Shown in pieces: positions 10,258 to 58,366 of a stretch of DNA of 58,366 bases (the stretch's first letter is position 1; each line of letters opens with the position of its first letter). A program made the translations under genes and the position numbers. The stretch is from the NCBI GenBank assembly GCA_020851995.1, contig JADZBO010000246.1, positions 1 to 58,366 of the forward strand. The letters are read 5' to 3'. The DNA comes from Burkholderiaceae bacterium. GTDB taxonomy: Bacteria; Pseudomonadota; Gammaproteobacteria; Burkholderiales; Burkholderiaceae_B. The notes under the pieces are model-generated. The model was not told where the DNA came from. It saw only the letters and a program-made list of their open reading frames with translations, and did not search any database.

Positions 10258-10271
10258 ACTGCACAATTCAT

Positions 10272-10299
10272 ATTGTAGGGGCAGATAATCCAATGTCAA
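10272..10299 (-). promoter_or_regulatory. Sigma-70 promoter of the phasin gene
   Basis: On the minus strand, a perfect -35 TTGACA (10299-10294), a 16-base spacer and a -10 TACAAT (10277-10272; one mismatch to TATAAT). It sits 71-98 bases upstream of the phasin start and predicts transcription from about 10265. Confidence 0.75.
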
Positions 10300-10301
10300 T
10301 A

Positions 10302-10313
10302 CTTTTTTGTTGC
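10302..10313 (-). promoter_or_regulatory. PhaR-like operator, upstream site of phasin promoter
   Basis: The minus strand reads GCAACAAAAAAG, one mismatch (A for T at position 9) from the recalled consensus GCAMMAAWTMMD. It lies immediately upstream of the -35 box, so the two sites bracket the promoter. Confidence 0.4.
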
Positions 10314-10436
10314 GTCGCACAAAAAAAACAACAACACCCTGTCCGACAAAGTTTGCCTCGTCCCCGTTAAACTTTCGTGACACTCGGCAAGATGGCACTT
10401 TGGCGGGGTACCAATCCATTCATCCGGAGACCTTCA

Positions 10437-11441: not shown

Positions 11442-11469
11442 CCGTCCCCATCAGGCGGACACAGCTTAT

Positions 11470-11538
11470 CCGATCAGTCGGATAGGGCCCTTCCGATCAG
11501 TCGGACAGGGCCTTTCCGATCAGGCTGGAAGGGCCTGG
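11470..11538. repeat. 23-bp tandem repeat, three copies, containing a palindrome
   Basis: Copies start at 11470, 11493 and 11516, each opening with CCGATCAG and ending in GGGCC plus 2-3 bases. Copies one and two are nearly identical; copy three is more diverged and covers the end of the IclR gene. Copy one contains TATCCGA-TCAG-TCGGATA (from 11468), a 7-bp stem with a 4-base loop. The array lies between the converging Bug and IclR genes and may act as a terminator, but there is no T-tract. Confidence 0.85.
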
Positions 11539-38069: not shown

Positions 38070-39709
38070 AATGGCTCAGATTCCTGTGGCCCCGGTCGCT
38101 GCGAACCCGGCTGATCCTGCTGGTGCTACTGACTCTCGCCGCCGCGCAGACAGCCACCCTCTACTCAATCTCCGTCTACCAGCGCAACCACGCCGAAGCG
38201 GTCTCAATCAACCTGATCGCCACCACGATCCGGACCCTGCACCAATCGATCGACAACATTCCACCGGAGGATCGTGCTGAATTTGTGAGGCAGGCCTCCG
38301 GAGGGCAATGGCGACTCTGGTCACGCGCATTGCCGGATGACGCGCGCGTGCAACGCCGGCCGGCCTGGCGCGATGGGTCAAATGCCCGCACACCGCAGGG
38401 AGGGCGTCCCGGCGCCGGATCGCCCGGCGCGAGGCCTGACGCCGCCATCGGCAACAGTGCATCCCGACCAGACGGCACCCTCCCACCGGCCGGCGCTCCG
38501 CGCGGGCCATACGGTGGCCCCGCTGGGGGGCCTGCCGGCGACCCTCAGGCAGGCACGCCTGGCGGGCAACCCGCACGACCGTCCACAACAGCGGGGCGCG
38601 GCCTCGGCAGCGCGGATGACGCTGCGCCGGATGAAGTGCGTCGCAGCCTGGGCACGGTGGTCGATCAGCTCAACGCGCAACTCGGACGCGATGCGCGCGT
38701 CGCGCTCTCACGGGGTGCAAAACCGGAAATTTTCATTTCGTTCGCACCCAGCATGTATCAGGGTAAGCAAGGGCCACGCGAGTGGCTGGTCATCCCCATC
38801 GAACGCATCGACCCACCCGTTTCCGGCGTGCTGGTGGCCGGGTGGCTCGCTGGATTACTGTTGGTCATTGCGGTCGCCATCTGGTTTTCGTGGCACATCA
38901 CGCGGCCGATCACCCGGCTGGTGCAAGCGACCGATCAGCTCGCGGCCGGGAATCCGGAACGCGTGACGCCAGCCGGGCCGACGGAAACCCGAATGCTCGG
39001 AGAGCGTTTCAACGCAATGATCGAAGCGCTTGCGGAGGCCGAGTCCACACGTCGCACCCTGCTGGCAGGACTGCCCCACGACCTCAAGGGGCCGTTGTCG
39101 CGGATGTGGCTGCGCATCGAAATGACGGACGACAAGACGCTCCAGGACGGTATGCGCAGCGACTTGCATGATATGCAGCGCATGGTGGACCAATTCATCG
39201 GATACTTGCGCGGCACAGACATCGCAACCTATCGGTTCGAACCCATCGCGCTGGACGAGTGGGTGCGCGAACGCATCGCCAGCTGGACGGGAGCCAAAAG
39301 CGACATCCGGCTTCTCGGCAAGCCGGTGCCGGCACAGGTCAACGGAGATACCGTGGCGCTCGCAAGGCTGCTGGACAACCTGGTGAGCAACGCATTGCAT
39401 CATGGCGCGCCGCCTGTCCACGTTTCTCTCAATGTTCAGGACCACTGGGCGGTGCTGCGCGTCAGCGACCATGGCGATGGGATTCCGGTGGATCAGCGGG
39501 CAGATGCCGTCAGACCCTTTGTGCGGCTCGACGCCGCGCGCACGCGCAGCGGCAATGTCGGTCTTGGCCTTGCGGTTGCCGACGTGATTGCCCGGGCTCA
39601 CGGCGGTTCACTCTCGCTCGGTCAGGGTTCAGAGGGTGGGCTGCAAGTCGAGGTGCGGCTTCCGATTCACTCTGCCGCCGGCCAGGATCAGGCACCCGAT
39701 CCGGCCTGA
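38066..39709 (+). CDS. EnvZ-like sensor histidine kinase with a Gly/Pro-rich periplasmic insert
   Basis: 547 aa. Membrane segment 1 at about 16-36, periplasmic domain 37-253, membrane segment 2 at about 254-276, HAMP to about 330. In the DHp helix the phospho-accepting H338 lies in GLPHDLKGPLSRM, similar to EnvZ. N-box LLDNLVSNALHHG at 435-447, G1 SDHGDGIP and G2 NVGLGLAV. The periplasmic part has a low-complexity stretch (about 97-185) made mostly of Gly, Pro, Ala and Arg that is not typical of EnvZ and makes the protein about 90 residues longer than usual. Coupled to the regulator gene upstream by an ATGA overlap. Confidence 0.9.
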   Translation: MKWLRFLWPRSLRTRLILLVLLTLAAAQTATLYSISVYQRNHAEAVSINLIATTIRTLHQSIDNIPPEDRAEFVRQASGGQWRLWSRALPDDARVQRRPAWRDGSNARTPQGGRPGAGSPGARPDAAIGNSASRPDGTLPPAGAPRGPYGGPAGGPAGDPQAGTPGGQPARPSTTAGRGLGSADDAAPDEVRRSLGTVVDQLNAQLGRDARVALSRGAKPEIFISFAPSMYQGKQGPREWLVIPIERIDPPVSGVLVAGWLAGLLLVIAVAIWFSWHITRPITRLVQATDQLAAGNPERVTPAGPTETRMLGERFNAMIEALAEAESTRRTLLAGLPHDLKGPLSRMWLRIEMTDDKTLQDGMRSDLHDMQRMVDQFIGYLRGTDIATYRFEPIALDEWVRERIASWTGAKSDIRLLGKPVPAQVNGDTVALARLLDNLVSNALHHGAPPVHVSLNVQDHWAVLRVSDHGDGIPVDQRADAVRPFVRLDAARTRSGNVGLGLAVADVIARAHGGSLSLGQGSEGGLQVEVRLPIHSAAGQDQAPDPA

Positions 39710-46311: not shown

Positions 46312-47526
46312 TTATTTCACCAGCGGACAGCCTCCCTTGTCGAGCGGGCGGAATGCTTTATCACCAGGGATCGTGGCAACGTACTTGTAGTAATCCCAGG
46401 GGTACTTCGACTCCGAAGGCTTTTTGACCTGGTAGACATACATGTCGTGCACCATGCGGCCATCGATGCGGATCTTGCCGTTCTTGGCAAACATGTCGTT
46501 GACCGGGGTTTCGCGCATCTTGGCCATCACCTTCGCGGTGTCGTCGGTTCCCGCGGCCTTCACGGCATTGAGGTAGTGCATCGTGGACGAATAGTTGCCG
46601 GCGTCCGACATGGTCGGCATGCGCTTGGTGCGCTCAAAGAACCGCTTGGACCACTTGCGCGTTTCGTCGTCCCGATCCCAATAGAAGCCGTTGGTCAGCG
46701 TCAGTCCCTGGGCAATATCGAGCCCCATGGCATCCACATCGGTCAGCCAGACCAGCAGGCCAGCGAGGGTTTGCTTGCCGGTTTTCGTCAGTCCGAATTC
46801 GTTGGCCGACTTCACCGCGTTGATAAACCCGGTACCCGAACCTGCGATCGCGACGACCTTGGCACCGGAGCCCTGCGCCTGCAGAAGGAACGAAGAGTGG
46901 TCAGCGGTGGCGATCGGATAGCGCACGCTGCCGATGACTTTGCCACCGTTGGCCTTGACGGCAGCGGTCGTATCGGCCTCGAGCGCGTGCCCGAAAGCGT
47001 AATCAGCGGTCAGGAAGAACCACGTATCGCCGCCCAGCCGGATGATTTCATTGCCAGTTCCATGAGCCAGTGCGTACGTATCGTAGGCATAGTGAATGCT
47101 GTTCGGAGTGCAAGCGTCCCCGGTAATGCGGGATGAACCAGAGCCGTTGACGATCGCGATACGATCCTTTTCTTTCGCCACGGTCATGACCGACAAGGCA
47201 ACGCCGGAATTGATCAGGTCGTTGATCATGCGCACATTCTGGGTGTCAAACCATTCACGCGCCTTGGCAGCGGCCACATCGGGTTTGTTCAGATGGTCGT
47301 TGACGAGCACCTCGATCGGCCGGTTCAGCACCTTGCCGCCCGCATCCTCAACGGCCATCCTGACCGCTTCGACGGCACCGGTGCCTGACTCGTGCGAAAA
47401 CTGGCCGGACAGGTCTGTCATGACCCCGATGCGCAGTGGTTCAGCGGTTTGGCCGCTCGCGGTGCCGGCGATCGCGGCAAGCGCCGCTGCCGCGACAAGA
47501 TGCACTGCTTTTTGACGTATTTTCAT
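46312..47526 (-). CDS. Liv-type ABC transporter substrate-binding protein
   Basis: 404 aa. Residues 1-26 are a signal peptide (KIRQKAVHLVAAAALAAIAGTASG). The mature part has the type I periplasmic binding fold of the branched-chain amino acid (LivJ/LivK) group: LRIGVMTDLSGQFSHESGTGAVEAVRMAVEDAGG, and WFFLTADYAFGHALEAD. Many Burkholderiales members bind aromatic or organic acids rather than amino acids. ATG at 47526 has GGAGTGAGA upstream. It follows the tandem-HxlR gene by 76 bases and is the last gene of the catabolic block. No livHMGF genes adjoin, so it must use a permease encoded elsewhere. Confidence 0.92.
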   Translation of the reverse strand: MKIRQKAVHLVAAAALAAIAGTASGQTAEPLRIGVMTDLSGQFSHESGTGAVEAVRMAVEDAGGKVLNRPIEVLVNDHLNKPDVAAAKAREWFDTQNVRMINDLINSGVALSVMTVAKEKDRIAIVNGSGSSRITGDACTPNSIHYAYDTYALAHGTGNEIIRLGGDTWFFLTADYAFGHALEADTTAAVKANGGKVIGSVRYPIATADHSSFLLQAQGSGAKVVAIAGSGTGFINAVKSANEFGLTKTGKQTLAGLLVWLTDVDAMGLDIAQGLTLTNGFYWDRDDETRKWSKRFFERTKRMPTMSDAGNYSSTMHYLNAVKAAGTDDTAKVMAKMRETPVNDMFAKNGKIRIDGRMVHDMYVYQVKKPSESKYPWDYYKYVATIPGDKAFRPLDKGGCPLVK

Positions 47527-47566
47527 TGTCTCACTCCATGGCCATATCGAATGGCAGTTGGTCATT

Positions 47567-47574
47567 GGGGGGGG
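47567..47574. repeat. Homopolymer G8 (C8 on the coding strand) upstream of the binding-protein gene
   Basis: Eight consecutive G, 41-48 bases upstream of the binding-protein start, in the spacer to the HxlR gene. This is the position of a leader or promoter, so a length change could alter expression. Confidence 0.8.
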
Positions 47575-47602
47575 TAATGCTCAATCCTTGATCAATAGAT
47601 CC

Positions 47603-48577
47603 TCAAACATCTTCCGTGGTTACAAGCGAATAACGTAGTTCGTACTGCATTTCCTTCGGGTCAAGCTCCTCGCGACACGCACTGCACACGACGCGAGCAA
47701 AAAAATCCTTTCCGCAGGGCTTATGCCTGAGCAGCAACGGAGGTTTGCCGCCGGAAAGCCAGCGGTCCCCCCATCGCATCATGACGATCATCGGGCCGTA
47801 CAGATCCAGTCCGCGCTCGGTGAAGCGGTATTCGAATCGCTCGGGCCGGCTCTGATATGCGTGTTTGCCGATGATTCCGTGCGCAGCCAGTCGCTGCAGT
47901 CGGTCGGTGAGGATATTGCTGGCAATCCCCATGTTGGCGGCAAACTCGTCAAATCGCCGTACGCCGAAAAACAACTCGCGAATCAGCAGGAACGTCCAGC
48001 GGTCGCCAATGATTTGCAATGACCGCGCCACCGAGCATGGCCGCACCCGTTCAAGGATGGCAGGATCCGACGCACGTCTGGATCGCTTGCGAACAGCGTC
48101 GCGTGTATCTTCGCCCGCGCCAGACCCCGGCCGGTAGTCGACATCGCGAGCCCCCACAGGCTGATCACATGCCGAACAGACGACGACCGGCGAACACCGC
48201 GCGCCACAGCCACGATGAATCAGTTGCAGCGGCAACGGTGCGCCCTGCCCCAGCCAGTCGTCACCAAAACGCAGCAGCGAGAGCATGGTCGGATACAGAT
48301 CCCGCCCCATCTCCGTGAGCCGATAATCGTAACGACTCGCACTGCTGGAATAACCCACCTTGTGCATCAGTCCAAGATTCGTCAGCTTGCGCAACCGCAC
48401 AATCAGCGTGTTGCGCGGCAGTTTCAGGACATGCTGAAACTGCTCGAACCGTCGTGCGCCGAAAAAGCTCTCGCGCAGCACAAGAAACATCCACGCATCC
48501 GAAAGGATTTCCACCGTGCGCGCGACCGAACAGGCTCGGTCCCGAGACGGCAGTGCGTGCGGAGGGCCCCCGGTCAT
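47603..48577 (-). CDS. Tandem HxlR-family regulator (two winged helices in one chain)
   Basis: 324 aa with two HxlR-type winged-helix units. Unit 1 (about 14-112) opens RACSVARTVEILSDAWMFLVLRE; unit 2 (about 179-277) opens RPCSVARSLQIIGDRWTFLLIRE. Each starts with the family's N-terminal Cys (C16, C181), which acts as a redox or thiol sensor in some relatives. Each unit is followed by a Cys-rich tail: C124, C128, C134 and C137, then C288, C298 and C301, which may bind zinc. HxlR proteins normally dimerise, so this chain looks like a covalent dimer. ATG at 48577 overlaps the upstream ligase stop (ATGA). It is likely the local regulator of the operon. Confidence 0.88.
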   Translation of the reverse strand: MTGGPPHALPSRDRACSVARTVEILSDAWMFLVLRESFFGARRFEQFQHVLKLPRNTLIVRLRKLTNLGLMHKVGYSSSASRYDYRLTEMGRDLYPTMLSLLRFGDDWLGQGAPLPLQLIHRGCGARCSPVVVCSACDQPVGARDVDYRPGSGAGEDTRDAVRKRSRRASDPAILERVRPCSVARSLQIIGDRWTFLLIRELFFGVRRFDEFAANMGIASNILTDRLQRLAAHGIIGKHAYQSRPERFEYRFTERGLDLYGPMIVMMRWGDRWLSGGKPPLLLRHKPCGKDFFARVVCSACREELDPKEMQYELRYSLVTTEDV

Positions 48578-50130
48578 CCCTGGTCGGCCTTGAGCGTGTC
48601 TTTCAATCTGAAGCGGACGATCTTGCCAGAGCCGGTGCGGGGAATTTCCGGCACCAGATGCACTGCCGCGGGCACCTTGTAGGCCGAAAGCCGTTCCCGG
48701 CAATGGGCGATCAGGGCGTCAGGCAACACCGTCATGCCGGGCCGGGCGACAACAAACACGACAGGCACTTCGCCAAGGTGCTCATGCGGTGCGCCCACCA
48801 CGGCACAATCCAGGACGGCAGCAAACGCGCAAACAGCCTCCTCGACTTCCGCCGGTGCAATGTTCTGACCACCACGGATCACCAGCTCCTTGAGTCGGCC
48901 TGTGATGGTCAGGAACCCATTGAGATCGCTGCGCGCAAGGTCGCCGGTGTAATACCAGCCGTCACGCAGGGCGGTTGCCGTCTCCGCCGGTTTGCGATGG
49001 TATCCCTTCATCACGTTGGGACCCCGCACAATAAGCTCGCCCTCCTGTCCCGGCTCGACATCCCGACCAGTGGCCGGATCGATCAGACGCACAGTCAGGC
49101 CGGGAACCGGCAAGCCGCAAGAACCCATGACGCGACCGCCTTCGAGCCAGTTCATCGTCACCATGGTCGACGTTTCCGTGATGCCGTAACCATCGAGCAG
49201 TTTGACGCCAAAACGCTGTTCGAACTCCTGATTGACCGGCGCCGGCATGATGGCGCCCGCTGAAATACAGGCACGCAATCCGGGGAACCGACAGTCCGGC
49301 GTATTGCGCGCGGCCTCAAGCAAGTAATGAAACATCGTCGGCACGCCTGGCATGAGCGTGAATTCGCCCGACTGCAGCAGAGTCATGACTTCGGAGGTGG
49401 AAAACTTTTCAAGAATACGTTCGCTCGCGCCAACCGCAAGAATGCTCAGCACCGACAGGTTGAGCGCATAAGAATGAAACAGCGGTAGCGGCGACAGCAC
49501 GCAGTCATGTTCAGACAGCCCGGCAACCGGCGTCCAGCAGGCCGCCGTCACCCAGAGCATTCCGCGCTGGGTCAGCAGCACACCCTTGGCGCGCCCGGTG
49601 GTACCCGACGTGTAGACAATAAAGGAGGTGTCGTCGATCGAGTCCGGATCGCGCGGCACAGAGCGGGCCTCGCGCGCGCGCAGGTCGGCGTAACGCAGGC
49701 CGACGCCGGGCGTATCGCCGCGCTCCAACAGGATGACCGTCGTCAACTGCGGATTGGCCTGCAGCAATTCGCGCACCATGGGGTAGCGTTCATCCGTGGT
49801 GACGATCACTTTGCACTGTGCATCCTCCAGCCGGTAGCCAACCTCATGCGCGGTGGAGTCATAACTGATCGGCACGCTGACGGCCCCGGCCCGCAATGTC
49901 GCGAAACAGGTCTCGACCCATTGCACCGAATTCGGCAGGAAGATCGCAACGCTGTCGCCGGCTTCGACACCGGCATCCTGCAAGTGTCCCGCCAGGTTGG
50001 CGGTCACCCGGGCAAGCTCACCATAAGTCACGCGGCCACGGCTGTCACTGTAGGCAACCTTGCCGGGGCGCGCCGTGGCATGCCGCGCGATCAGTTCACT
50101 GACCGGCACAATCAATTCCTGTCGAATCAT
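48574..50130 (-). CDS. Acyl-CoA synthetase (AMP-forming)
   Basis: 518 aa, ANL superfamily. Motifs: YTSGTTGRAKGV (P-loop), DGYGITETSTM, YYTGDLARSD, KELVIRGGQNIAPAEVEE, and the catalytic Lys in IPRTGSGKIVRF near the C-terminus. It activates a carboxylic acid to its CoA thioester, and overall style is that of long-chain or aromatic acyl-CoA ligases (FadD-like); specificity cannot be read by eye. Presence in the operon suggests the catabolic substrate is a carboxylate handled as a CoA ester. It begins 32 bases after the SDR stop and overlaps the regulator gene by four bases. Confidence 0.9.
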   Translation of the reverse strand: MIRQELIVPVSELIARHATARPGKVAYSDSRGRVTYGELARVTANLAGHLQDAGVEAGDSVAIFLPNSVQWVETCFATLRAGAVSVPISYDSTAHEVGYRLEDAQCKVIVTTDERYPMVRELLQANPQLTTVILLERGDTPGVGLRYADLRAREARSVPRDPDSIDDTSFIVYTSGTTGRAKGVLLTQRGMLWVTAACWTPVAGLSEHDCVLSPLPLFHSYALNLSVLSILAVGASERILEKFSTSEVMTLLQSGEFTLMPGVPTMFHYLLEAARNTPDCRFPGLRACISAGAIMPAPVNQEFEQRFGVKLLDGYGITETSTMVTMNWLEGGRVMGSCGLPVPGLTVRLIDPATGRDVEPGQEGELIVRGPNVMKGYHRKPAETATALRDGWYYTGDLARSDLNGFLTITGRLKELVIRGGQNIAPAEVEEAVCAFAAVLDCAVVGAPHEHLGEVPVVFVVARPGMTVLPDALIAHCRERLSAYKVPAAVHLVPEIPRTGSGKIVRFRLKDTLKADQG

Positions 50131-50162
50131 TTTATTGTCTCCCTTACCCCTAAGCCTAGGCG

Positions 50163-50918
50163 TCAGACCATGCAGAAACCGCCGTTGACGCTCAGCACCT
50201 GCCCGGTAATCCAGCTTGCCGCGTCCGACGACAGAAAGGCCACGGTCGGTGCGATATCGCCAGGCTTGCCGATGCGGCGCAGCGGATAGTTGCGCACAAT
50301 CTTTTCACGGTTGGCCGCGAGGAACTCGGCATCGGAATGCGAGGTCTCGATCAGACCAAGAGAAATCGCGTTGCAGGTCACGTTGGCGCGGCCGAGTTCT
50401 TTGGCCAGGGATTTCATCAGGGCGATGCCGCCGGCGCGCGCGGCGGCAGCGATCGCAATACCGTTCTCGCCCACGCGGGACGAATCGCCCGCCAGCGTAA
50501 TGATGCGACCGCCGTTCTGGCGCACCATGTGCGGTGCCACCGCGTGGCAGGTATGAATGGTGCCGTAGAGGTCGACGTCGATCTGGCGCGCCCATTGCTC
50601 TGGCGTGGAGTTGACGAATCGCTCGCCGATGACGACCCCGGCGTTGTTGATCAGGATGTCGATGCGACCGAAATCGGTCACGATTGAATCGACCATCGCG
50701 CGTACCGCCGCGTAGTCACCCACGTTGGCGCGATAGGCGCGCGCTTTGCCGCCGGCTTTGACGATCTCGTCCACGACGCCCTGCGCCTCTGCCGCCGAAT
50801 TGTTGTAGTTCACCGCGACGGTGGCACCGTCTTGCGCAAGCGCCAGCGCGATTTCGCGACCGACATCGCGACCGCCACCCGTCACGAGGGCCACTTTGCC
50901 GTTGAGTCCGAGGTTCAT
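50163..50918 (-). CDS. Short-chain dehydrogenase/reductase (FabG-like)
   Basis: 251 aa, classical SDR. Cofactor motif ALVTGGGRDVGREIALALAQDG, NNAG in ILINNAGVVIGE, Ser in TLAGDSSRVGENG. The usual catalytic YxxxK is not obvious: where Tyr is expected the sequence reads GIAIAAAARAGGIALMKSLAKELG, so the Tyr appears replaced by Ala while a Lys persists. If so it may be inactive or work by another residue. C-terminal WITGQVLSVNGGF is normal. It follows coxL-like gene after 137 bases holding a tandem repeat. Confidence 0.85.
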   Translation of the reverse strand: MNLGLNGKVALVTGGGRDVGREIALALAQDGATVAVNYNNSAAEAQGVVDEIVKAGGKARAYRANVGDYAAVRAMVDSIVTDFGRIDILINNAGVVIGERFVNSTPEQWARQIDVDLYGTIHTCHAVAPHMVRQNGGRIITLAGDSSRVGENGIAIAAAARAGGIALMKSLAKELGRANVTCNAISLGLIETSHSDAEFLAANREKIVRNYPLRRIGKPGDIAPTVAFLSSDAASWITGQVLSVNGGFCMV

Positions 50919-50970
50919 TCAATGCTCCTTGATGATGTTGTTATTGCAATGTCTCTGCTGTGGGTGTTTT

Positions 50971-51047
50971 GTATCTGTGACTGACGCGCTGTGTCTGTTG
51001 CTGATGCGACTGTCTGTTGCTGATGCGATTGTCTGTTGTTGATGCGA
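50971..51047. repeat. 19-bp tandem repeat, three good copies plus a degenerate one
   Basis: Copies at 50991-51009, 51010-51028 and 51029-51047, unit CTGTCTGTTGCTGATGCGA with one to two changes per copy. A decayed copy precedes them at 50971-50990. The array fills much of the 137-base gap between the CoxL-like stop and the SDR start. Confidence 0.9.
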
Positions 51048-51055
51048 TGTATCCG

Positions 51056-53440
51056 TTAGCTGCTGGCGCCGTGCATCAGTCGAAAAATGCGTTCGGGGCT
51101 CGCCGGCAACTCGGTGATCTCAATGCCCAGCGGTTGCAAGGCATCCGAAATCGCGTTGGCAATGGCAGCCGGCGCCCCGATCGTGCCACCCTCGCCCATC
51201 CCGCGGAACCCGCCCAGGGTGGCCGGAATAATCGATTCAATGTGCAGCACGTCAACGAAGGGAATCTCGGCCGCCGAAGGCGCCACGTAGTCCACCAGAC
51301 TCGCGGTCAGAAGCTGGCCGCGCTCGTCGTAAACGACTTCTTCAAACAGTGCCGCGCCGATGCCCTGCGCCACAGCGCCATGCACCTGCCCGTCGACAAT
51401 GAGCGGATTGATCATGCGGCCGCAATCTTCCGCGACCAGATAATCCTGCACCCGTACCATGCAGGTCTCGGGATCGACCTCCACCACCGCGATATGCGTC
51501 GCCGAACTGGTGGTTCCCCAGACCGGGTCGTACGAACGGGTCTCCTCAAGGACTTCGGCGACTTCCTTCGGAACGCGGCCCATCTGCGAATAGACGGCGT
51601 CGGCGATGTCCGCGATGGTGGTTATCGCGCCGTTGTCCATGGCCGTGACCACGCCATCGTGAATGTCAATGTAGGGCGGATGACTGTTGAGCAAATGCGC
51701 GGCAATGCGTGCCAGCTTTTCGCGCAGCGCGGCGCCCGCCTGCATGCCGGCGCCGCCCGCGAGAACCGCGCTGCGGCTTGCGTAGGTTCCGGTGCTGTGC
51801 GAGACAGCGGCGGTATCTCCGTGCACGACGGTGATGTCCTGCATCCGCGCGCCCAGCGCGTCCGCCACCACCTGCGCGAGTGAGGTCTCGAGCCCCTGCC
51901 CGTGGGAAGCAATGCCGAAGTACGCGGTAATCGTCCCGCTCGGGTCAATCTTGATGGTCGCGATCTCGGTGCCCGTATTGATCGGCATGCCGGGCGACGC
52001 CGAAATCCGTGACCCGATCCCTGAAAGCTCCGCATAGCAGGCCAGCCCGATACCGAGCAACTTCCCCTGCGCACGCGCGGCAGCCTGCCGTGCCCGCAAC
52101 GCGTCATACCCGATGCGCTCACAGCCGCCCTCGAGCGCCTCAAGAAAGCCTGACCGATCCCAGACGATTCCTGGCGCTGTCTTGTAGGGGAACTCCTCGG
52201 GCCGGATCAGATTACGCCGGCGGATTTCACGCGCATCGAGTCCGAGACGGTGCGCGGCCATGTCGATCAGACGCTCCATCACAAACGTCGAAGTGGGCCT
52301 GCCCACGCCCCGGTACGGTCCGGTTGGGGACTTGCAGGTGGCCACGCCGCGCACACGACCGTAGTAGACCGGCACACGGTACGGTCCCGGCATGAAACTG
52401 ATGACCTGCACGGGTTCGAGCCCCGCCGTCCAGGGATAGATCGAATAGGCGCCAACGTCCCCCACGACATCCGCGTGCAAGCCGAGGATATGCCCCTCGG
52501 CATCCACCGCGATCTGCGCATCGATGGTCTCGTCGAACGCCTGACTGGTCGCTGCCAGATCCTCCATGCGATCGCCTGTCCACTTGACAGGCTGAGCGAG
52601 CTCGCGCGCCAGGGCACACACCAGGATTTCCTCCGGGTAGAGCGATCCCTTGCCGCCGAAGCTGCCGCCCACATCCGGCGCAATCACGCGGACCCGATTG
52701 CCAGGGATCCCCAGAATTCGCACCAGCGCATCGCGCACGATGCCGGGACTTCCGGTGGTGGAATGCAAGGTCAACGCCCGGCGGCCGCCGTCATATTGCG
52801 CAAGATAGGCGCGGTTCTCGATCGCCATCGGGGTCTTGCGGTGAAAGCGCAGACGCGCACTGACCGTGACCGCCGCCTCGCGCAGCACCGCATCGATATC
52901 TCCGCGACGAAATTCACGCCGCACCAGCACGTTGGTGCCCGCCGCCTCGTGCAGCAGCGGGGCGCCCTCCTGCGCCGCCTCGATGGGATCCACCAGAGGC
53001 GTGAGCGGTGCGTACTCGATCTGCACCAGTTCGACGGCGTCCTCGGCGATGTAGCGGCTGTGCGCGACCACTGCCACGACGGCCTCGCCGACGAACCGCA
53101 CCTTGCCGCTGGCCAACGGCAGTATCGCCGTGGAGTGGTAGTCGGCCATGCGCGACACGGCATGAATCGGCTCTACCTTGCCCTCGAGATCGGCCGCGGT
53201 ATAGACGGCCACGACGCCGGGCAGCGCACGTGCCGCCTCGACATCAATCGCGAGGATGCTGGCATGGGCCTGATCACTGCGTCGCAATGCCACGTGCAAC
53301 AAGCCCTGCACCGGGATATCGTCGACATAGCGACCCAGTCCGCAGAGCAGGCGCGGATCCTCGGTGCGGAGAACGCGCGCGCCCACCAGCTTGGGTCTGT
53401 CGGGCGCCAGATTCGCCCCGCGGTCGGTTTCGTTGGCCAT
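51056..53440 (-). CDS. Molybdenum hydroxylase large subunit, CoxL-like form II
   Basis: 794 aa. Xanthine-oxidase-family molybdopterin subunit in the CoxLMS three-subunit arrangement. The cofactor motif is DVGGSFGGKGS, the active-site loop is GPYRGVGRP, GQG appears in SHGQGLETSLAQ, and the catalytic Glu lies in GGFRGMGEGGTIG. True CO dehydrogenases (form I) have AYxCSFR with a catalytic Cys in that loop. Here there is none, so CO oxidation is unlikely and hydroxylation of an organic substrate is expected. No signal peptide, so it is cytoplasmic. ATG at 53440 is two bases after the MBL gene stop. Confidence 0.92.
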   Translation of the reverse strand: MANETDRGANLAPDRPKLVGARVLRTEDPRLLCGLGRYVDDIPVQGLLHVALRRSDQAHASILAIDVEAARALPGVVAVYTAADLEGKVEPIHAVSRMADYHSTAILPLASGKVRFVGEAVVAVVAHSRYIAEDAVELVQIEYAPLTPLVDPIEAAQEGAPLLHEAAGTNVLVRREFRRGDIDAVLREAAVTVSARLRFHRKTPMAIENRAYLAQYDGGRRALTLHSTTGSPGIVRDALVRILGIPGNRVRVIAPDVGGSFGGKGSLYPEEILVCALARELAQPVKWTGDRMEDLAATSQAFDETIDAQIAVDAEGHILGLHADVVGDVGAYSIYPWTAGLEPVQVISFMPGPYRVPVYYGRVRGVATCKSPTGPYRGVGRPTSTFVMERLIDMAAHRLGLDAREIRRRNLIRPEEFPYKTAPGIVWDRSGFLEALEGGCERIGYDALRARQAAARAQGKLLGIGLACYAELSGIGSRISASPGMPINTGTEIATIKIDPSGTITAYFGIASHGQGLETSLAQVVADALGARMQDITVVHGDTAAVSHSTGTYASRSAVLAGGAGMQAGAALREKLARIAAHLLNSHPPYIDIHDGVVTAMDNGAITTIADIADAVYSQMGRVPKEVAEVLEETRSYDPVWGTTSSATHIAVVEVDPETCMVRVQDYLVAEDCGRMINPLIVDGQVHGAVAQGIGAALFEEVVYDERGQLLTASLVDYVAPSAAEIPFVDVLHIESIIPATLGGFRGMGEGGTIGAPAAIANAISDALQPLGIEITELPASPERIFRLMHGASS

Positions 53441-53442
53441 GG

Positions 53443-54204
53443 TCAGTCGTAATGCTCCTGGCCGCGGCGCAATGTCTGCCATTGTGCGTCGTCATGGCCA
53501 AACAGAACCGTCGCACCGCTCGCCTCGATTCGCCGCACTTCGGCCATCGAGCGGGTCGCCTGCTCGTGATCCCAGGTGTTGCGCGGGTTGCTGTCTGTCT
53601 CCAGGCTATGCCGCAGCGCCACCGCATCGGACGCCAGCAGATAAGCGCCAGACCGGTCAAGCGCCACCAGCGCGCCTGTCATGCCTGGCGTATGACCAGG
53701 CAGCGGTAACAGAACGATGCGCCCGTCATTGAACAGATCGCGCTCGCCATCAATCGTCTCCATCGGCATCGGCAGCTTCCAGTCGATCGCCAGGTAGCCG
53801 ACCCGGTCAGCGTCGGCCTGGCTGGCGGCCTCAAGTTCGTGCGCATGGCAAATAAAGGTTGCCTTGCGAAAGTAGGCATTGCAACCACAGTGATCCGTGT
53901 GAAAGTGCGAGTTCACGACCACGTCGATGTCGTCCGGCCGCAATCCCACCGACTCCAGATTGGTGATGAGGTTATCGCCCGGGCCGGACAACACCGTCAT
54001 CGCGCGCGACATCGTGCCCCAGCGGCCCTCCGGATCGGTCTCTGTCGAAGGATGACACCCGGTGTCAAACAGCACGTTGCCTTGCGGATGACGCAACAGA
54101 TAGCAGGCGACGGGCAAATCGATGGTTTCGTGCTTTTCAGCGCCAGCCACATAGACGCCACGGCGCATGCGAAGGCGACCACCGGACAGTACATGCATTT
54201 TCAT
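53443..54204 (-). CDS. Metallo-beta-lactamase-fold lactonase, AiiA/AttM-like
   Basis: 253 aa, close to AiiA (250 aa). Zinc ligands match in spacing: HFHTDH at 100-105, H171 in PGHTPGM, D193 in ASDAV and H237 in FGHDDA, the two-metal site of N-acyl homoserine lactonases. ATG at 54204 overlaps the coxS-like stop (ATGA), and the CoxL-like gene begins two bases after its stop, so it is embedded in the Mo-hydroxylase operon. Its job is more likely opening a lactone made in the pathway than quorum quenching, but that is inference. The region between residues 140 and 165 differs from AiiA. Confidence 0.88.
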
Positions 54205-54695
54205 TTTGCGCTCTCCTTGCCGCGGTCGCGCGTCACGCGCACCGCTTCGACGATATGGGTGTATCCAGTGCAACGGCACAGGTTGCCCGAAAGCCCTTCG
54301 CGAATCTGTGCGTCGTCGGCCAGCGGGTACTTCTGCAACATATCGGTTGCGGTCATCAGCATTCCCGGTGTGCAAAAGCCGCATTGCAGGCCGTGGCACT
54401 CGTGAAAAGCCTGCTGCAACGGATTGAGCGCCTCGGGGCTGCCCAGACCCTCGACGGTGCCGATCACACAGCCATCGGCCTGCACCGCCAGCATCAGGCA
54501 CGCGCGCACGCTGCTGCCGTCGACCATGATGGTGCATGCACCGCACACGCCGTGCTCACAGCCGACATGGGTTCCCGTCAGGCCGAGCGTATGACGCAGA
54601 AAATCCGACAGCAGCATCCGGGGCTCGACGCGCCGTGTATACGGCTGACCGTTTACGGTCAGCGTGATTTCAATTGTGGTTTCAGTTTCCAGCAT
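54201..54695 (-). CDS. Molybdenum hydroxylase 2Fe-2S subunit, CoxS-like
   Basis: 164 aa. Ferredoxin-like cluster ligands C46, C51, C54 and C66; second cluster C105, C108, C140 and C142 (CGFCTPG and CRCTGY). These carry electrons from the Mo site to the FAD subunit. The start at 54695 lies 14 bases inside the coxM-like gene, and the end overlaps the MBL gene by four bases, so all are coupled. Compared with the IorA-like protein at 2354-2803 it is a separate lineage (CTPGM versus CQSGM). Confidence 0.94.
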
Positions 54696-55569
54696 GCAGT
54701 GCTCCGGTTGCGCGGTTCCATGCGTCCTTCAGGGCGCGACGCACCAGCACACCGACCAGATGCCGGCGATAGTCGGCCGAGGCATGCAGATCGGTCGAGG
54801 GCTCCACGCCAGCCCGCACCGACGCCACCGCGTCGTCCAGCGTGCTCTCGTCACACGTCTGACCAAAGAGAATTGTTTCGGCTTCAAACATGCGTTGTGC
54901 AACGTCGCCCACGCCCATGACGCCCACCCGTGCCTCGACGACCCGCCCCGCATCGACGTGCAGCACGACACCGACTGCGGCCAGTGCGAAATCACCCGAG
55001 CGGCGCGCGACCTCCTCGAAAGCCCAGCCGGCGCCTTGCGGCAAACCCGGCAACCGGATCTGCGTCACGATCTCGTCCTCCTCGACCGCCGAAGTCAGGG
55101 GGCCGAGAAAAAACTCCTGCGCTTCAAGCTCGCGGGCGCCGCGCGACGACACCAGACTGATTTGCGCATCGAGCAACACCATCATCAGCGGAAGCTCCGC
55201 CGCCGGATCGGCGTGCGTGATACTGCCGCCAATCGTGCCGCGGTTGCGAATCGCCAGGTGCGCGACGTGCTGCATCGCCGCGTGCAGGACCGGAAACCGC
55301 TCGCGCACAATGTCCGCGGTTTCGAGCGTGTGATGGCGCGTCAGCGCGCCGATGTCCAGTCCGCCATCGGCACGAACGCGCACGAAATCCAGCTCCGCGA
55401 TCCGGTTGATGTCGATCAGAACTCCGGGGTTGAGCAGGCGGAAATTCAGCATCGGAATCAGACTCTGGCCACCCGCAATGACCTTGCCGTCGCCGTCGGC
55501 GGCGTGCAGCGCCTTGACGGCCTCGGCCAGGGTTTGCGGGCGCAGGTAAGCGAACTTGGGCGGTTTCAT
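54682..55569 (-). CDS. Molybdenum hydroxylase FAD subunit, CoxM-like
   Basis: 295 aa. FAD-binding motifs VIAGGQSLIPMLNFR and TIGGSITHADPAAELP are the typical pair in CoxM and related medium subunits. The C-terminal CO_deh_flav_C domain begins near FEEVARRSGDFALAAVGVVL. It moves electrons to the respiratory chain or NAD. ATG at 55569 is next to a 14-bp repeat that lies in the short gap to the preceding gene. Confidence 0.93.
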   Translation of the reverse strand: MKPPKFAYLRPQTLAEAVKALHAADGDGKVIAGGQSLIPMLNFRLLNPGVLIDINRIAELDFVRVRADGGLDIGALTRHHTLETADIVRERFPVLHAAMQHVAHLAIRNRGTIGGSITHADPAAELPLMMVLLDAQISLVSSRGARELEAQEFFLGPLTSAVEEDEIVTQIRLPGLPQGAGWAFEEVARRSGDFALAAVGVVLHVDAGRVVEARVGVMGVGDVAQRMFEAETILFGQTCDESTLDDAVASVRAGVEPSTDLHASADYRRHLVGVLVRRALKDAWNRATGALHAGN

Positions 55570-55572
55570 GCG

Positions 55573-55608
55573 TTGCTCATGATGGTTTGCTCATGATGGT
55601 TTGCTCAT
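55573..55608. repeat. 14-bp tandem repeat spanning a stop codon and the ribosome-binding region
   Basis: TTGCTCATGATGGT at 55573-55586 and 55587-55600, plus a third partial copy at 55601-55608. It covers the stop of the CoxG-crotonase gene and the 35 bases before the coxM-like start. On the coding strand each copy gives an ATGAGC, so extra potential start-stop signals precede the real ATG at 55569. Confidence 0.85.
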
Positions 55609-57059
55609 TTCCCGGTGAAGACCGGGGCGCGCTTTTCGACAAAGGCCTGACGGGCATCACGGTAGTCGTCACTGGCAACCGCCCGGTTCACCACCTCGTC
55701 GACGACCTGAGCGCTGAGGAGTCCCATGTCCATGGTCAGCCCGTTGAGCATGGTCTTTGTCCCTGCAATGGTGAGCGGTGCGTTGTCGGCCAGCCGCGCG
55801 GCATAGGCAAGCGCAGCTGCCATCGGCTGCTCGGCCACCCCATCGACGAACCCGATGCGTTGCGCCTGAGCCGCATCAAACACCGCCGCGCTGAACATGA
55901 TGTGCCGAGTCTGTGCAAGACCGACGAGCGCCAGCAGCCGCTGCACCCCGCGCACGCCGTAGACCACCGACAGTCGTGCCGCCGGAATGCCGAACCGCGC
56001 ATCGGTCCGGGCCCAGCGGAAGTCGCACGCCATGGCCAGATGACACGCGCCGCCCATGCAGTAGCCATCGATCACGGCCAGGGTGGGCTTGGGTGTTGCC
56101 GCAATTGCGTCGCAGCAAGCGTCAACCGCCCGCTCGTAGGCCTCCCCTTGCGCAACCGTTGCGCGCACTTCGCCAAATTCAGAGATGTCGGCACCGGCAC
56201 TGAAGCAGCCGCCCGCTCCCGTCAGGAAAATGGCACGGATCTCGGGACGCGCGCCCAGTTCGGTAAAGAGTGTGGCCAGATCGCGCCACATGGCGAGCGA
56301 GACGGCATTGCGCTGCGACGCACGATTCAGGGTCACGACCGCGGCCTTGTGACGTGTCACGGGGTCGGTTAAAACCCCGGTGCCCTGATTGCCTGCCGGA
56401 CGCGTGCCGGACGCCGGTCCGGAGTTCGGATCCTGCCCGCGACCAATCAGTCGGCTGAACCAACCACCCGCGCGCCCCGGGGCGGCCGCACCCGGGTCGC
56501 TTCCTGCCGGTTCGGCCAGGTCAATCAGGGTGACCACCAGGTGATCGCCGCTTGTCAGTCCAGAGGGCGATAGGGGCGTTGAATCAGCGGACGTGGCGTC
56601 CCCGGATTCATCCGCGGGCGGACAGAGGATTGCGTTGAATTTGGCAAAAAACTGCTCGGCCATCTTGCGCGCGGTCGAGTCAATCAACCGCGAGCCGAGT
56701 TGGGCGATCTTTCCGCCGATGTTGGCGGTGACGCCGTAACGCAACAGCGTGGCGCCTGAGCTGTCGGGCACCAGTTCGACCGTGATGTCGCTCTTGGCAA
56801 ACCCCGCGACGCCTCCCTGGCCTTCGCCAACCAGCCGATAGCTGCTGGGCGCGACGATATCGCACAGCGTGACCTTGCCGTTGAATTTGGCCTTGATCGG
56901 CCCGACCTTGACCACCACAAGCGACGTGAACTCGGTGTCCGAAACCCGCTCCAGGGTTTCGCACCCGGGGATGCAGGCCTTGAGGACCTCCGGATCGTTC
57001 AATGCGGCCCAGACGGCCTCGCGGGAGGCGTCCAGGCGGATTTCATCTTTGAGTTCCAT
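55605..57059 (-). CDS. CoxG (SRPBCC)-crotonase fusion protein
   Basis: 484 aa in one open frame. Residues 1-150 are a CoxG-type SRPBCC domain (LDASREAVWAALNDPEVLKACIPGCETLE; Gly-rich IGGKIAQLGSRLI). Residues 150-230 are a Pro/Gly/Ser-rich linker with WFSRLIGR, similar to the membrane-tail region of CoxG. Residues 232-484 are a crotonase domain with oxyanion-hole loops CFSAGADI and GYCMGGACHLA. The two catalytic Glu of enoyl-CoA hydratase map to H340 and A361, so it is probably not a hydratase. The start at 57059 gives the normal CoxG MELKDE opening. No start codon lies at the crotonase boundary, which supports a true fusion. Confidence 0.85.
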   Translation of the reverse strand: MELKDEIRLDASREAVWAALNDPEVLKACIPGCETLERVSDTEFTSLVVVKVGPIKAKFNGKVTLCDIVAPSSYRLVGEGQGGVAGFAKSDITVELVPDSSGATLLRYGVTANIGGKIAQLGSRLIDSTARKMAEQFFAKFNAILCPPADESGDATSADSTPLSPSGLTSGDHLVVTLIDLAEPAGSDPGAAAPGRAGGWFSRLIGRGQDPNSGPASGTRPAGNQGTGVLTDPVTRHKAAVVTLNRASQRNAVSLAMWRDLATLFTELGARPEIRAIFLTGAGGCFSAGADISEFGEVRATVAQGEAYERAVDACCDAIAATPKPTLAVIDGYCMGGACHLAMACDFRWARTDARFGIPAARLSVVYGVRGVQRLLALVGLAQTRHIMFSAAVFDAAQAQRIGFVDGVAEQPMAAALAYAARLADNAPLTIAGTKTMLNGLTMDMGLLSAQVVDEVVNRAVASDDYRDARQAFVEKRAPVFTGK

Positions 57060-57099
57060 GGGGCTTGAATCCGGTTGGGTGCAGTCCGATGCGCGGCAG

Positions 57100-57549
57100 T
57101 CAGGCAGCGGCGGCGGGCAGCGCGAGTTTTTTGAGCGCGCGCACCAGCGAGTCCGGCACCGGTACCGGCCGATTGGTCTCGCGATCGACGTAAACGTGCA
57201 CAAACTGCCCCTGGGCCGACGCCAGATCCTCGTCGTTGCGGAAAATGGCGATGTCGTAGCGCACGCTGCTGGAGCCCAGTTTCGCGAGGCGCAAGCCGAC
57301 GCTGATGCGGTCCGGGAAGGCGATCGAACTGAAATAGTTGCAATGGGTATTGACGACCAGACCTACGACCGGGGACTTCTCGATGTCGAGCACACCGCTT
57401 TCAATCAGGAAATGGGTCACCGCAGTGTCGAAATACGAGTAGTAGACGACGTTGTTGACATGCGCAAACACGTCGTTGTCCATCCAGCGGGTGGTGACCG
57501 GCAGGAAGTGCGCAAAGGCGGCACGGGATTCAGGGGCTGAACGGGTCAT
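57100..57549 (-). CDS. Acyl-CoA thioesterase, 4-hydroxybenzoyl-CoA thioesterase family
   Basis: 149 aa hot-dog fold. TTRWMDNDVFAHVNNVVYYSYFDTAV holds the catalytic Asp (in the D-x-FxHVNN motif), followed by the long helix. SSVRYDIAIFRNDEDLASAQGQFVHVYVD is the second half. It would release CoA from an acid product or scavenge stuck CoA. The ATG at 57549 has GAGGTTCTC upstream. First gene of the operon, 41 bases before the CoxG-crotonase start. Confidence 0.9.
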   Translation of the reverse strand: MTRSAPESRAAFAHFLPVTTRWMDNDVFAHVNNVVYYSYFDTAVTHFLIESGVLDIEKSPVVGLVVNTHCNYFSSIAFPDRISVGLRLAKLGSSSVRYDIAIFRNDEDLASAQGQFVHVYVDRETNRPVPVPDSLVRALKKLALPAAAA

Positions 57550-57829: not shown

Positions 57830-58366
57830 ATGACCAAGGTTTATTCCATCGACGGTGTGACTCCGGTCGTTCACCCGACCGCCTTCGTGCACCCCACCGC
57901 TGTGCTAATCGGCGATGTCGTCATCGGCCCGCGCTGTTACATCGGCCCGCTGGCCAGTCTGCGCGGAGATTTCGGCCGCATCATCATCCATGAAGGCGCC
58001 AATATCCAGGATAGTTGCGTGTTGCATGGATTTGCAGAGTGCGACACCGTCGTGGATGTCGACGGCCACATCGGCCATGGCGCGGTGCTGCACGGTTGCA
58101 AGATCGGCCGCAACGCACTTGTGGGCATGAACGCGATCGTGATGGACGATGCCGTTATCGGTGAATCGAGCATCATCGGCGCGGCATCCTTTGTGAAAGC
58201 AGGGGCGAACATTCCTCCCCGCAGCATGGTGATGGGCACACCCGCCAAAGTCATCCGCGAACTGCGCGACGAGGAAATCGAATGGAAAAGCAAGGGCACC
58301 GAGCAATACCACCATCTGACGGAGCGCTCCCTGCTGACCATGCGCGAAACCACCGCGCTGACGGAG
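57830..58366 (+). CDS. paaY: PaaY-like gamma-carbonic-anhydrase-fold hexapeptide protein (3' end cut off)
   Basis: 179 codons from ATG at 57830 to the window edge; the open frame continues, and the family is about 195-200 aa. Left-handed beta-helix hexapeptide repeats ([49 protein letters not shown]) and the three His positions of gamma-carbonic anhydrases are in place (HEG..., [10 protein letters not shown]). PaaY acts as a thioesterase that protects CoA in phenylacetate breakdown in E. coli. It is divergent from the Mo-hydroxylase operon, which strengthens the idea that the region handles CoA esters of an aromatic or cyclic acid. Confidence 0.92.

Follow-up and report, generated by a model that had tools for sequence, protein, structure and literature searches.

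Gene content and organization of the locus

The window, by which we mean the entire stretch of DNA analyzed, comprises 58,366 nt from Burkholderiaceae bacterium GCA_020851995.1 (contig JADZBO010000246.1, positions 1–58,366, forward strand). An ORF check combined with Pfam identified ten intact open reading frames between 46312 and 57549, all on the minus strand (Table 1), in agreement with the initial annotation, which had described ten co-directional genes with these domains and a divergent paaY. Its claim of many ATGA overlaps did not hold. ATGA occurs at just two of the nine junctions (CoxS/MBL and LIG/HxlR), CoxM and CoxS share a 14-base overlap, and the other six junctions are gaps of 2 to 137 bases. 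No terminator-like sites were found on the coding strand between the ten genes; nine such sites were detected in total, as expected by chance (10.1), and the two minus-strand ones lie inside genes. An alternative upstream ATG is possible for CoxL (53482), as is an earlier start for the PaaY-like gene (57722). The PaaY-like gene runs off the window end, and its product scored 302.8 bits against TIGR02287 (cut-off, 319.6). The gene is an occasional neighbor, seen near the gene set (hereafter the cassette) at 7 of 85 loci.

Table 1. Genes of the locus, with positions in the window and supporting matches
Feature	Position	Strand	Evidence or remark
TE, hot-dog (4HBT) acyl-CoA thioesterase, predicted	57100..57549	-	PF13279, E 2.4e-20
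CoxG (SRPBCC) and non-hydratase crotonase, fused through a long linker	55605..57059	-	PF06240, E 2.2e-35; PF00378, E 8.2e-39
CoxM, FAD subunit of molybdenum hydroxylase	54682..55569	-	PF00941, PF03450
CoxS, [2Fe-2S] subunit	54201..54695	-	PF01799, PF00111
MBL-fold lactonase-like hydrolase	53443..54204	-	PF00753; ATGA overlap with CoxS
CoxL-like molybdopterin large subunit	51056..53440	-	PF20256, PF02738, PF01315
SDR-family NAD(P) oxidoreductase	50163..50918	-	PF13561
LIG, AMP-binding acyl-CoA ligase, predicted	48574..50130	-	PF00501, E 7.4e-96
Tandem-HxlR regulator	47603..48577	-	PF01638 in two stretches
Liv/HAAT-type periplasmic binding protein	46312..47526	-	PF13458, E 2.5e-103
PaaY-like protein, cut by window end	57830..58366	+	61% identity to E. 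coli PaaY

The two halves of the tandem-HxlR regulator are 43% identical, and each carries an H-x2-C-x9-C-x2-C motif whose residues are kept in 44 or 45 of 45 sequences. The binding protein is 66–83% identical in other carriers and 95% identical in the nearest relative, with one distant match at 26%. Solved binding proteins gave no lead to the substrate; the closest chains, 3i09 and 3n0w, are named just as branched-chain amino-acid-type.

Conservation of the cassette among relatives

A class-wide search for CoxL at 1e-250 returned the window alone (1/369), and was followed by looser phylum and family searches. We retained 80 of the 204 confirmed loci. The comparison below rests on the 45 of these with at least 22 kb, thus excluding 35 shorter loci, four plasmid loci, locus L039 and the window. 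Near-identical records were counted separately (e.g., L114/L126 and L073/L075), and the pairs L051/L048, L052/L049 and L103/L047 were taken as the same records, with one per pair counted. As controls we used 20 of 92 CoxL-paralogue rows (window row excluded), picked because they scored high and had enough contig around them; their CoxLs are 36–40% identical, and 12 to 20 kb was examined around each.

The same gene set turns up in members of the alpha-, beta- and gammaproteobacteria. Among the 45 relatives, CoxL is accompanied at cassette-level similarity by SDR in 43, MBL in 36, crotonase in 32, the binding protein in 30, tandem HxlR in 28 and TE in 19, and none of these six reached that level at the 20 control loci. 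Homologues of MBL, TE, tandem HxlR, the binding protein and an iron-type alcohol dehydrogenase (FeADH) were absent from the controls altogether, which hold CoxG in 7, weaker SDR homologues in 7, a weak match to succinic semialdehyde dehydrogenase (SSADH) in 2, and LIG and a crotonase in 1 each. CoxG is unspecific, as all 7 of its control matches are at cassette level. Neighbors do not vary freely: the set is kept across relatives and is not found at the 20 other CoxL paralogues. Counts for ligase, FeADH and TE are low because several Rhizobium and Sinorhizobium loci end before these genes; plasmid L132 has them. Other members carry Liv-type permease and ATPase genes, FeADH and SSADH, which the window locus lacks. 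LivF, LivM and similar names are our own labels, backed by family search for plasmid L132 only. Complete sets lie on two Aminobacter plasmids, and a phenylpropanoid-type ligase/thiolase module adjoins the cassette in four loci.

It is highly improbable that two or more independent modules (transport and regulation, CoxLMS-SDR, and a late module) merely lie side by side. An alphaproteobacterial clade does carry CoxLMS-SDR without MBL, the arrangement is altered in Rhizobium and Afipia, and genome G141 has the late module, described below, without a nearby ligase and molybdenum enzyme. Nevertheless, the same parts are regrouped in other orders in distant taxa, including compact plasmid sets, and few of them occur at the control loci.

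The matches include Xanthobacter tagetidis and Burkholderia sp. IMCC1007. We considered reading the substrate from such named carriers and rejected this, as carriage by itself is no proof and no MBL, ligase or SDR is found at cassette level in the locus of X. tagetidis.

The molybdenum hydroxylase and the embedded MBL-fold protein

By Pfam, CoxLMS has the three-subunit architecture of the xanthine oxidase family, with Mo-binding, FAD and [2Fe-2S] domains. A C-terminal glutamate within G-E-G-G, which we take to be the active-site glutamate, is kept in 86/86 large subunits. At the position of the Y-R-C-S-F-R loop in the solved CO dehydrogenases (1ffu and 1n5w), the alignment places R-G-V-G-R-P in all 86, and scores of 601.4 and 522.1 bits fall far below the CO dehydrogenase NCBIfam cut-offs of 950 and 991.15. 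The enzyme is thus a non-CO hydroxylase, as first proposed, and CO oxidation is excluded. The role of 4-hydroxybenzoyl-CoA reductase was also rejected, all three subunits scoring under its family cut-offs. The top NCBIfam match of the large subunit is glyceraldehyde dehydrogenase alpha (619.2 bits, under the cut-off of 790). The nearest PDB sequence is quinoline 2-oxidoreductase (1t3q; 566 bits, versus 483 for the best CO dehydrogenase), which hydroxylates a heteroaromatic carbon on a free N-heterocycle.

In 53 of the 59 loci holding all three genes, MBL is flanked by CoxS and CoxL, and its metal-type residues (H100, H102, D104, H105, H171, D193 and H237) are kept in 54/54 proteins. AttM lactonase is the top NCBIfam match (140.3 bits, under the equivalog cut-off of 390), and the solved relatives with the best scores are N-acylhomoserine lactonases. 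For 24 of the 86 related large subunits the MBL gene is missing from the DNA examined, 14 of them on stretches shorter than 13.5 kb, and the presence/absence label switches 16 times on the tree. One MBL-less clade instead carries a second operon for a Mo-hydroxylase, along with an alpha/beta hydrolase and a RidA-like gene, a hint that hydroxylases of this family may also act on other rings, perhaps ones containing nitrogen.

These observations bear on whether the substrate of the cassette could be a nitrogen heteroaromatic acid, converted by the molybdenum enzyme to a lactam-type hydroxy compound, with MBL opening the ring amide or a later lactone. The kinship with quinoline 2-oxidoreductase would fit, as would RidA-like genes near five MBL-less relatives (with Pfam support for one) and HpaB-like monooxygenases adjoining a few members. 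We nonetheless regard this as quite unlikely, since the best-scoring solved relatives of MBL are N-acylhomoserine lactonases and no amidase, deaminase or hydantoinase-like family was found among the families recurring in at least 17 of 85 loci. In that count, antisense families overlapping known genes (e.g., c16, c18 and c20) were judged by eye to be shadow frames and left out.

A crotonase without the hydratase glutamates

CoxG and crotonase are fused in 13 of the 40 loci holding both. The AlphaFold2 model of the window fusion has a mean pLDDT of 71.0, with residues 149–170 and 184–235 below 50. Using PaaF E109 and E129 as reference, presumably the two catalytic glutamates of enoyl-CoA hydratase, we found the first replaced by His (47) or Asn (2) and the second by Ala (48) or Ser (1) in 49 crotonases. 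Plain enoyl-CoA hydration is thereby ruled out, and a hydratase annotation is contradicted by the active-site residues. The crotonase domain noted initially is confirmed, and it is not an ordinary hydratase. At the position of YgfG Y140 a Tyr occurs in 49/49; Y140 and H66 are, we assume, active-site residues of methylmalonyl-CoA decarboxylase YgfG/ScpB. Decarboxylation is not secured, because the H66 position is Ala in 49/49.

A neighboring operon has the order CoxL-CoxM-CoxS-ligase-crotonase, and its crotonase retains both glutamates in 6/6. In a neighboring operon of relatives, CoxG is fused to the large subunit itself.

Late genes and the proposed route to succinate

The one SSADH that was scored passed TIGR01780 (682.7 versus a cut-off of 646.35), although with 752.6 bits it stayed under the cut-off of 828 for NF008415, the NADP-type equivalog. 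The counterparts of GabD R165, R294, S446 and C289 are kept in 17/17 (16 loci and the copy in the window's own genome); we take the Arg/Arg/Ser set to serve in carboxylate binding. The SSADH of the window genome lies on another contig (64% identity), and no close FeADH was found in that genome (best, 36%). In genome G141, crotonase (58%), FeADH (63%) and SSADH (65%) are clustered with a CoA-transferase in a stretch where no homologue of the ligase or the Mo enzyme was found; we therefore read the cluster as a late module heading to succinic semialdehyde. Lactonase, alcohol dehydrogenase and SSADH occur together in one locus in relatives, not at the window locus.

Recurrent FeADH and SSADH, along with top NCBIfam matches to glyceraldehyde dehydrogenase alpha and AttM, could alternatively point to a blcABC/attKLM-like cassette degrading gamma-lactones and 4-hydroxyacids, in which the molybdenum enzyme would be an aldehyde oxidoreductase and the CoA chemistry would handle a side chain. 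This is very unlikely: SSADH already oxidizes the aldehyde, the ligase indicates an acid substrate, and both scores are far below equivalog cut-offs.

A further alternative is an hmf-type 2-furoate pathway. It would run through 2-furoyl-CoA, C5 hydroxylation, lactone opening and 2-oxoglutaroyl-CoA to 2-oxoglutarate, with FeADH and ALDH acting upstream on furfuryl alcohol and furfural and MBL as the lactonase missing from hmfABCDE. Ligase, CoxLMS-type hydroxylase and crotonase-type gene are enzyme kinds shared with hmf, and the chemistry is described in PMC6678421 and PMC6604932. The ALDH, however, is SSADH-type with the Arg/Arg/Ser set throughout, unexpected for a furfural dehydrogenase, and an end product of 2-oxoglutarate would presumably need neither SDR nor SSADH. 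We consider this reading unlikely.

A proposed pathway for furan-type acids

From the parts, their conservation, their residues and their linkage, all observed, we infer the reactions that follow and their order. Judged from sequence, we give about an even chance to a cassette that degrades a CoA-activated acid on an oxygen-heteroaromatic (furan-type) ring. In its favor, the families recurring in at least 17 of 85 loci include no ring dioxygenase, amidase or deaminase. The ten genes belong to a set, common to many soil, water and root-nodule bacteria, that probably imports a ring acid and takes it through a lactone to central metabolism. The Liv-type binding protein, with permease and ATPase genes known from other members, would import the acid, and LIG would convert it to the CoA thioester. 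CoxLMS would then introduce a water-derived hydroxyl at the ring carbon beside the ring oxygen, the electrons going through FAD towards the quinone pool. CoxG, described as a membrane tether in PMC11962113 and PMC4240915, would anchor the enzyme at the membrane; its fusions with the downstream enzyme or with a large subunit suggest channelling there. The hydroxy-heteroaromatic would tautomerize to an enol lactone, and this lactone could be hydrolyzed by MBL. The ring-opened CoA ester would pass to the non-hydratase crotonase, most likely a decarboxylase or hydrolase and tied to CoxG in the window. SDR, the thioesterase (by CoA release) and FeADH (encoded elsewhere) may lead to 4-hydroxybutyrate or succinic semialdehyde, from which SSADH would yield succinate.

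Our single best guess for the substrate of this furan-type pathway is 3-furoate. Opening of its C2-lactone would give a malonyl-type CoA ester, and the crotonase could decarboxylate this to 4-oxobutanoyl-CoA. We offer only as speculation that no genetic system for 3-furoate-type (beta-furan) acids precedes this cassette, which would combine C2 hydroxylation of the 3-furoyl-CoA ring, MBL opening, decarboxylation by a new kind of crotonase with a His/Ala/Tyr site and fused to CoxG, and succinate as product. If true, rhizobia and other proteobacteria would share a widespread trait for plant-derived furans, carried partly on conjugative plasmids.

Comparison with known systems

Mo-Cu CO dehydrogenase (coxMSL, coxG) has the same subunit types and CoxG; the cassette differs in lacking the Cys of the YRCSFR loop and in the CoA-ester enzymes around CoxLMS. 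Many CoxL-like genes lack an assigned function; in a sponge-symbiont survey (PMC8941161), this applied to 720 of the 867 sequences of the largest CoxL-type cluster. The cassette links one widespread CoxL-like clade to defined partner enzymes and hence to a testable pathway. For quinoline 2-oxidoreductase, the nearest solved large subunit by sequence, we know of no comparable partner set. 4-Hydroxybenzoyl-CoA reductase, a xanthine-oxidase-family enzyme acting on aroyl-CoA, belongs to the same family as CoxLMS, but its cut-offs are missed in all three subunits. The blcABC/attKLM system converts gamma-butyrolactone to succinate, and complete cassette members resemble it in bringing together MBL lactonase, alcohol dehydrogenase and SSADH kinds; beyond it they have CoA ligase, Mo hydroxylase, crotonase and thioesterase, and their MBL is far under the AttM cut-off.

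Compared by kinds of enzyme, the closest described pathway is hmfABCDE, in which HmfE has the crotonase fold. The initial annotation knew of no named pathway with exactly this set, and its reading of a possible CoA-ester catabolic cluster is supported by the present analysis. We found no description of the cassette in the open-licence PMC papers searched, but its kind is not wholly new given the closeness of hmfABCDE. According to PMC6678421 and PMC6604932, that system (Cupriavidus basilensis HMF14; Pseudomonas pseudoalcaligenes CECT 5344) comprises a ligase, a three-subunit Mo hydroxylase acting on the ring acyl-CoA, and a lactone intermediate; the published scheme ends at 2-oxoglutarate, and the lactone-opening gene is without assignment in PMC6678421. 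By kind of enzyme, the CoA ligase, Mo hydroxylase and crotonase-type gene are shared. Unlike hmfABCDE, the cassette has an embedded putative MBL lactonase, SDR, hot-dog thioesterase, FeADH/SSADH, Liv-type uptake and tandem HxlR, and for lactone opening, the step of CoA-dependent furan degradation without an assigned gene, its MBL protein is a candidate.

The cassette and its distribution

Ten co-directional genes, all intact by open reading frames and Pfam matches, lie where the initial annotation had placed them. They code for a 4HBT thioesterase (TE), a CoxG-crotonase fusion, the FAD subunit (CoxM) and [2Fe-2S] subunit (CoxS) of a Mo hydroxylase, a lactonase-like protein of the metallo-beta-lactamase fold (MBL), the hydroxylase large subunit (CoxL), an SDR, an AMP-binding acyl-CoA ligase (LIG), a tandem-HxlR regulator and a Liv-type binding protein (SBP). 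The gene read as a divergent paaY is indeed PaaY-like, with 61% identity to E. coli PaaY. Of the many ATGA overlaps reported, those at CoxS/MBL and LIG/HxlR were found and the rest were not, leaving two in nine junctions. CoxM and CoxS overlap by 14 bases, and no terminator-like sites occur on the coding strand between cassette genes. Each half of the HxlR protein carries H-x2-C-x9-C-x2-C, whose residues recur in 44 or 45 of the 45 copies compared and resemble those of a metal-binding or thiol-sensing site. The window is one contig (C246) of a 3.9 Mb genome in 290 contigs. Outside the cassette it encodes a second molybdopterin-binding protein, a separate xanthine-oxidase-type protein with Pfam MoCoBD_1 and MoCoBD_2 and a TAT_signal score (22.1) just below the 22.7 cut-off.

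Coordinates of the features discussed
Feature	Sequence	Position	Strand
Ten-gene cassette	window	46312-57549	minus
Tandem HxlR	window	47603-48577	minus
Second molybdopterin-binding protein	window	144-2516	minus
HpaB/HpaC-like pair and DUF2848 gene	L039 (cassette locus of relative G108)	746-3613	
Late-module genes	L040 (locus of relative G141)	3930-12181	
Second N-acyl homoserine lactonase family gene (annotation)	L131 (Bradyrhizobium elkanii plasmid)	37881-38729	

The cassette is real, conserved and widespread. A search for the same gene order, as had been proposed, recovered it in G108, which repeats TE, CoxG-crotonase, CoxM, CoxS, MBL, CoxL, SDR and LIG at 44-75% identity. Among the matches listed from 399 genomes of the order, G108 and the window's genome were the two with CoxG and crotonase in one frame. 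CoxL was found at E <= 1e-170 in 3 of 268 genomes of the family, all from the window's genus, and in 3 of 398 genomes of a phylum sample, the window's own being counted both times. In the phylum sample, G1008 has a rearranged cassette with crotonase and the usual ligase absent from the 20 kb examined, and G1019 (44% identity) has the Mo-hydroxylase subunits only. Scanning 84,980 species genomes yielded 204 confirmed loci. The best 80 of these, with large subunits at least 59% identical, were analysed and include Paucimonas, Noviherbaspirillum, Cupriavidus, Afipia, Bradyrhizobium, Bosea, Xanthobacter, Rhizobium, Sinorhizobium, Agrobacterium and others. Cultured strains with all or nearly all of the genes include Paucimonas lemoignei DSM 7445, Cupriavidus numazuensis LMG 26411 and Pseudorhodoferax soli DSM 21634. 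Large-subunit matches at E <= 1e-150 were also present in 20 plasmid records, 16 of them typed conjugative; 19 belong to Rhizobium, Bradyrhizobium, Sinorhizobium, Agrobacterium or Aminobacter, and the remaining one is a 43.5% relative from Thermomicrobium. A B. elkanii plasmid with the cassette has, within a sugar-type cluster close by, a second gene annotated as N-acyl homoserine lactonase family.

Recurring partners of the hydroxylase

As controls we used 20 other CoxL paralogues from the same order (36-40% identity), each examined over 12-20 kb. No MBL, TE, iron-type alcohol dehydrogenase (FeADH), tandem HxlR or SBP homologue lies beside any of them. Weaker homologues of SDR (7), succinate-semialdehyde dehydrogenase (SSADH; 2), LIG (1) and crotonase (1) were seen, none at the similarity found among cassette members; CoxG reached that level beside 7 of the 20 and is therefore not discriminating. 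Among 45 member loci of at least 22 kb, cassette-level matches numbered 43 for SDR, 36 for MBL, 32 for crotonase, 31 for CoxG, 30 for SBP, 28 for HxlR, 20 for LIG, 19 for TE, 15 for FeADH and 13 for SSADH. Some of these counts are too low because loci stop early; on a Sinorhizobium plasmid, SDR, LIG, FeADH and TE lie just past the point where shorter loci stop.

All-against-all ORF clustering of 85 loci (the 80 scan loci, four plasmid loci and L039), with antisense shadow frames excluded, placed CoxL, CoxM, SDR, MBL, crotonase, HxlR, CoxS, LIG, SBP, CoxG, FeADH, TE, SSADH and four Liv-type transporter genes in at least 17 loci each, and PaaY in 7. No ring-cleaving dioxygenase, amidase or deaminase was among the families recurring in at least 17 loci; rarer flanking genes were annotated in part. 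Two Aminobacter plasmids hold complete compact cassettes, comprising Liv-type genes, SBP, CoxG, crotonase, CoxM, CoxS, MBL, CoxL, SDR, LIG, FeADH, TE, SSADH and an HTH gene. The nearest relative has FeADH between PaaY and TE. The window has none there, nor does a close FeADH occur elsewhere in its genome (best match 36%); a 64% identical SSADH is on another contig. Adjacent to the G108 cassette lie a DUF2848 gene and two genes for an HpaB/HpaC-like flavin monooxygenase; HpaB-like genes also neighbour L089, L097, L124 and a Bradyrhizobium plasmid copy.

The hydroxylase and the lactonase-like protein

Quinoline 2-oxidoreductase (566 bits) is the solved chain nearest to the large subunit, with CO dehydrogenase (483) next, and the subunit scores below all NCBIfam cut-offs reported for it. 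The YRCSFR loop of 1ffu and 1n5w aligns with YRGVGR in the window protein, and R-G-V-G-R-P is invariant in 86 large-subunit rows. The MBL protein scores best against N-acylhomoserine lactonases, then 4-pyridoxolactonase and, weakly, beta-lactamases; its seven metal-type residues are invariant (54/54). Its gene lies in the order CoxS-MBL-CoxL in 53 of the 59 loci holding all three, and mainly because of this placement we infer a lactone as the product of the hydroxylase, and thus an oxygen heterocycle as its substrate.

On a FastTree phylogeny of the large subunit, rooted with a distant paralogue, MBL is present on the deep branches. It is missing from the stretch examined in 24 rows, 19 of them in one largely alphaproteobacterial clade; since 14 of the 24 stretches are shorter than 13.5 kb, some absences may reflect cut contigs. 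MBL presence switches 16 times along the tree; with shuffled labels the mean is 24.2. Six MBL-less loci (L061, L067, L071, L081, L082, L086) adjoin a second operon with CoxM, CoxS, a ligase and a crotonase of the Glu/Glu type, which in four of the six includes an open frame of about 1000 residues matching CoxL and CoxG. In L061 this frame has 1003 residues, with Mo-binding and COXG domains by Pfam, and is a separate fusion, again tying CoxG to Mo enzymes. A RidA-like gene is near five of the six (Pfam in L082).

The crotonase and the late steps

At the position of E. coli PaaF glutamate 109, 47 of 49 crotonase orthologues have His and 2 Asn; at that of glutamate 129, 48 have Ala and 1 Ser. Because both glutamates are replaced in 49/49, while a neighbouring-operon crotonase of some relatives keeps both (6/6), an ordinary enoyl-CoA hydratase is ruled out. 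All 49 have Tyr at the YgfG Tyr140 position and Ala at that of His66, and the enzyme may be a decarboxylase, a hydrolase or an isomerase. Where CoxG and crotonase are both present (40 loci), they are fused in 13, adjacent but separate in 7 and apart in 20. The predicted structure of the fusion (mean pLDDT 71.0) has two domains and a low-confidence linker; the 50 Foldseek matches listed appear to be crotonase-fold entries, with none aligned to the CoxG domain alone.

The one SSADH-type protein scored was above the TIGR01780 cut-off, and equivalents of GabD R165, R294, S446 and C289 are kept in 17/17 SSADHs, including the window genome's copy. We take the Arg/Arg/Ser set to bind the carboxylate of succinate semialdehyde. 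G141 has clustered homologues of the crotonase (58%), FeADH (63%) and SSADH (65%). Between FeADH and SSADH lie an SDR-like gene and an MFS-type transporter, and beyond the cluster come a class III CoA-transferase and an alpha/beta hydrolase. This stretch yielded no homologue of the Mo enzyme or the ligase, so the late steps form a module of their own; judged from gene content, the same route would here be entered in another way. At L103, L113, L114 and L126 the cassette adjoins a PRK12582-type ligase, presumably feruloyl-CoA-synthetase-like, and a BktB-like thiolase; three of these loci also have a 3-hydroxyacyl-CoA dehydrogenase on the stretch examined (Pfam for two). The arrangement suggests that side-chain beta-oxidation feeds the cassette.

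A proposed route and its relation to 2-furoate degradation

Of the schemes considered, we infer that one starting from 3-furoate is the sole one to use every part. 3-Furoate would be converted to 3-furoyl-CoA and hydroxylated at C2 to 2-oxo-2,3-dihydrofuran-3-carbonyl-CoA, whose ring MBL would open to 2-carboxy-4-oxobutanoyl-CoA. Decarboxylation by the crotonase would give 4-oxobutanoyl-CoA, from which SDR, TE and FeADH could produce 4-hydroxybutyrate or succinic semialdehyde, and SSADH would yield succinate.

The cassette is apparently so far undescribed, no published description having been found in the open-licence PMC literature. In the published 2-furoate pathway, HmfD carries out activation, HmfABC hydroxylation and HmfE the last CoA hydrolysis, and lactone hydrolysis is without an assigned gene (PMC6678421; PMC6604932). 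PMC6678421 quotes GenBank ADE20399, ADE20402 and ADE20403 for HmfA, HmfD and HmfE, respectively. Compared by these descriptions, the cassette would work similarly, though its gene set differs from that of hmf and its product probably does too. Our verdict is that it represents a new, variant form of CoA-dependent heteroaromatic degradation.
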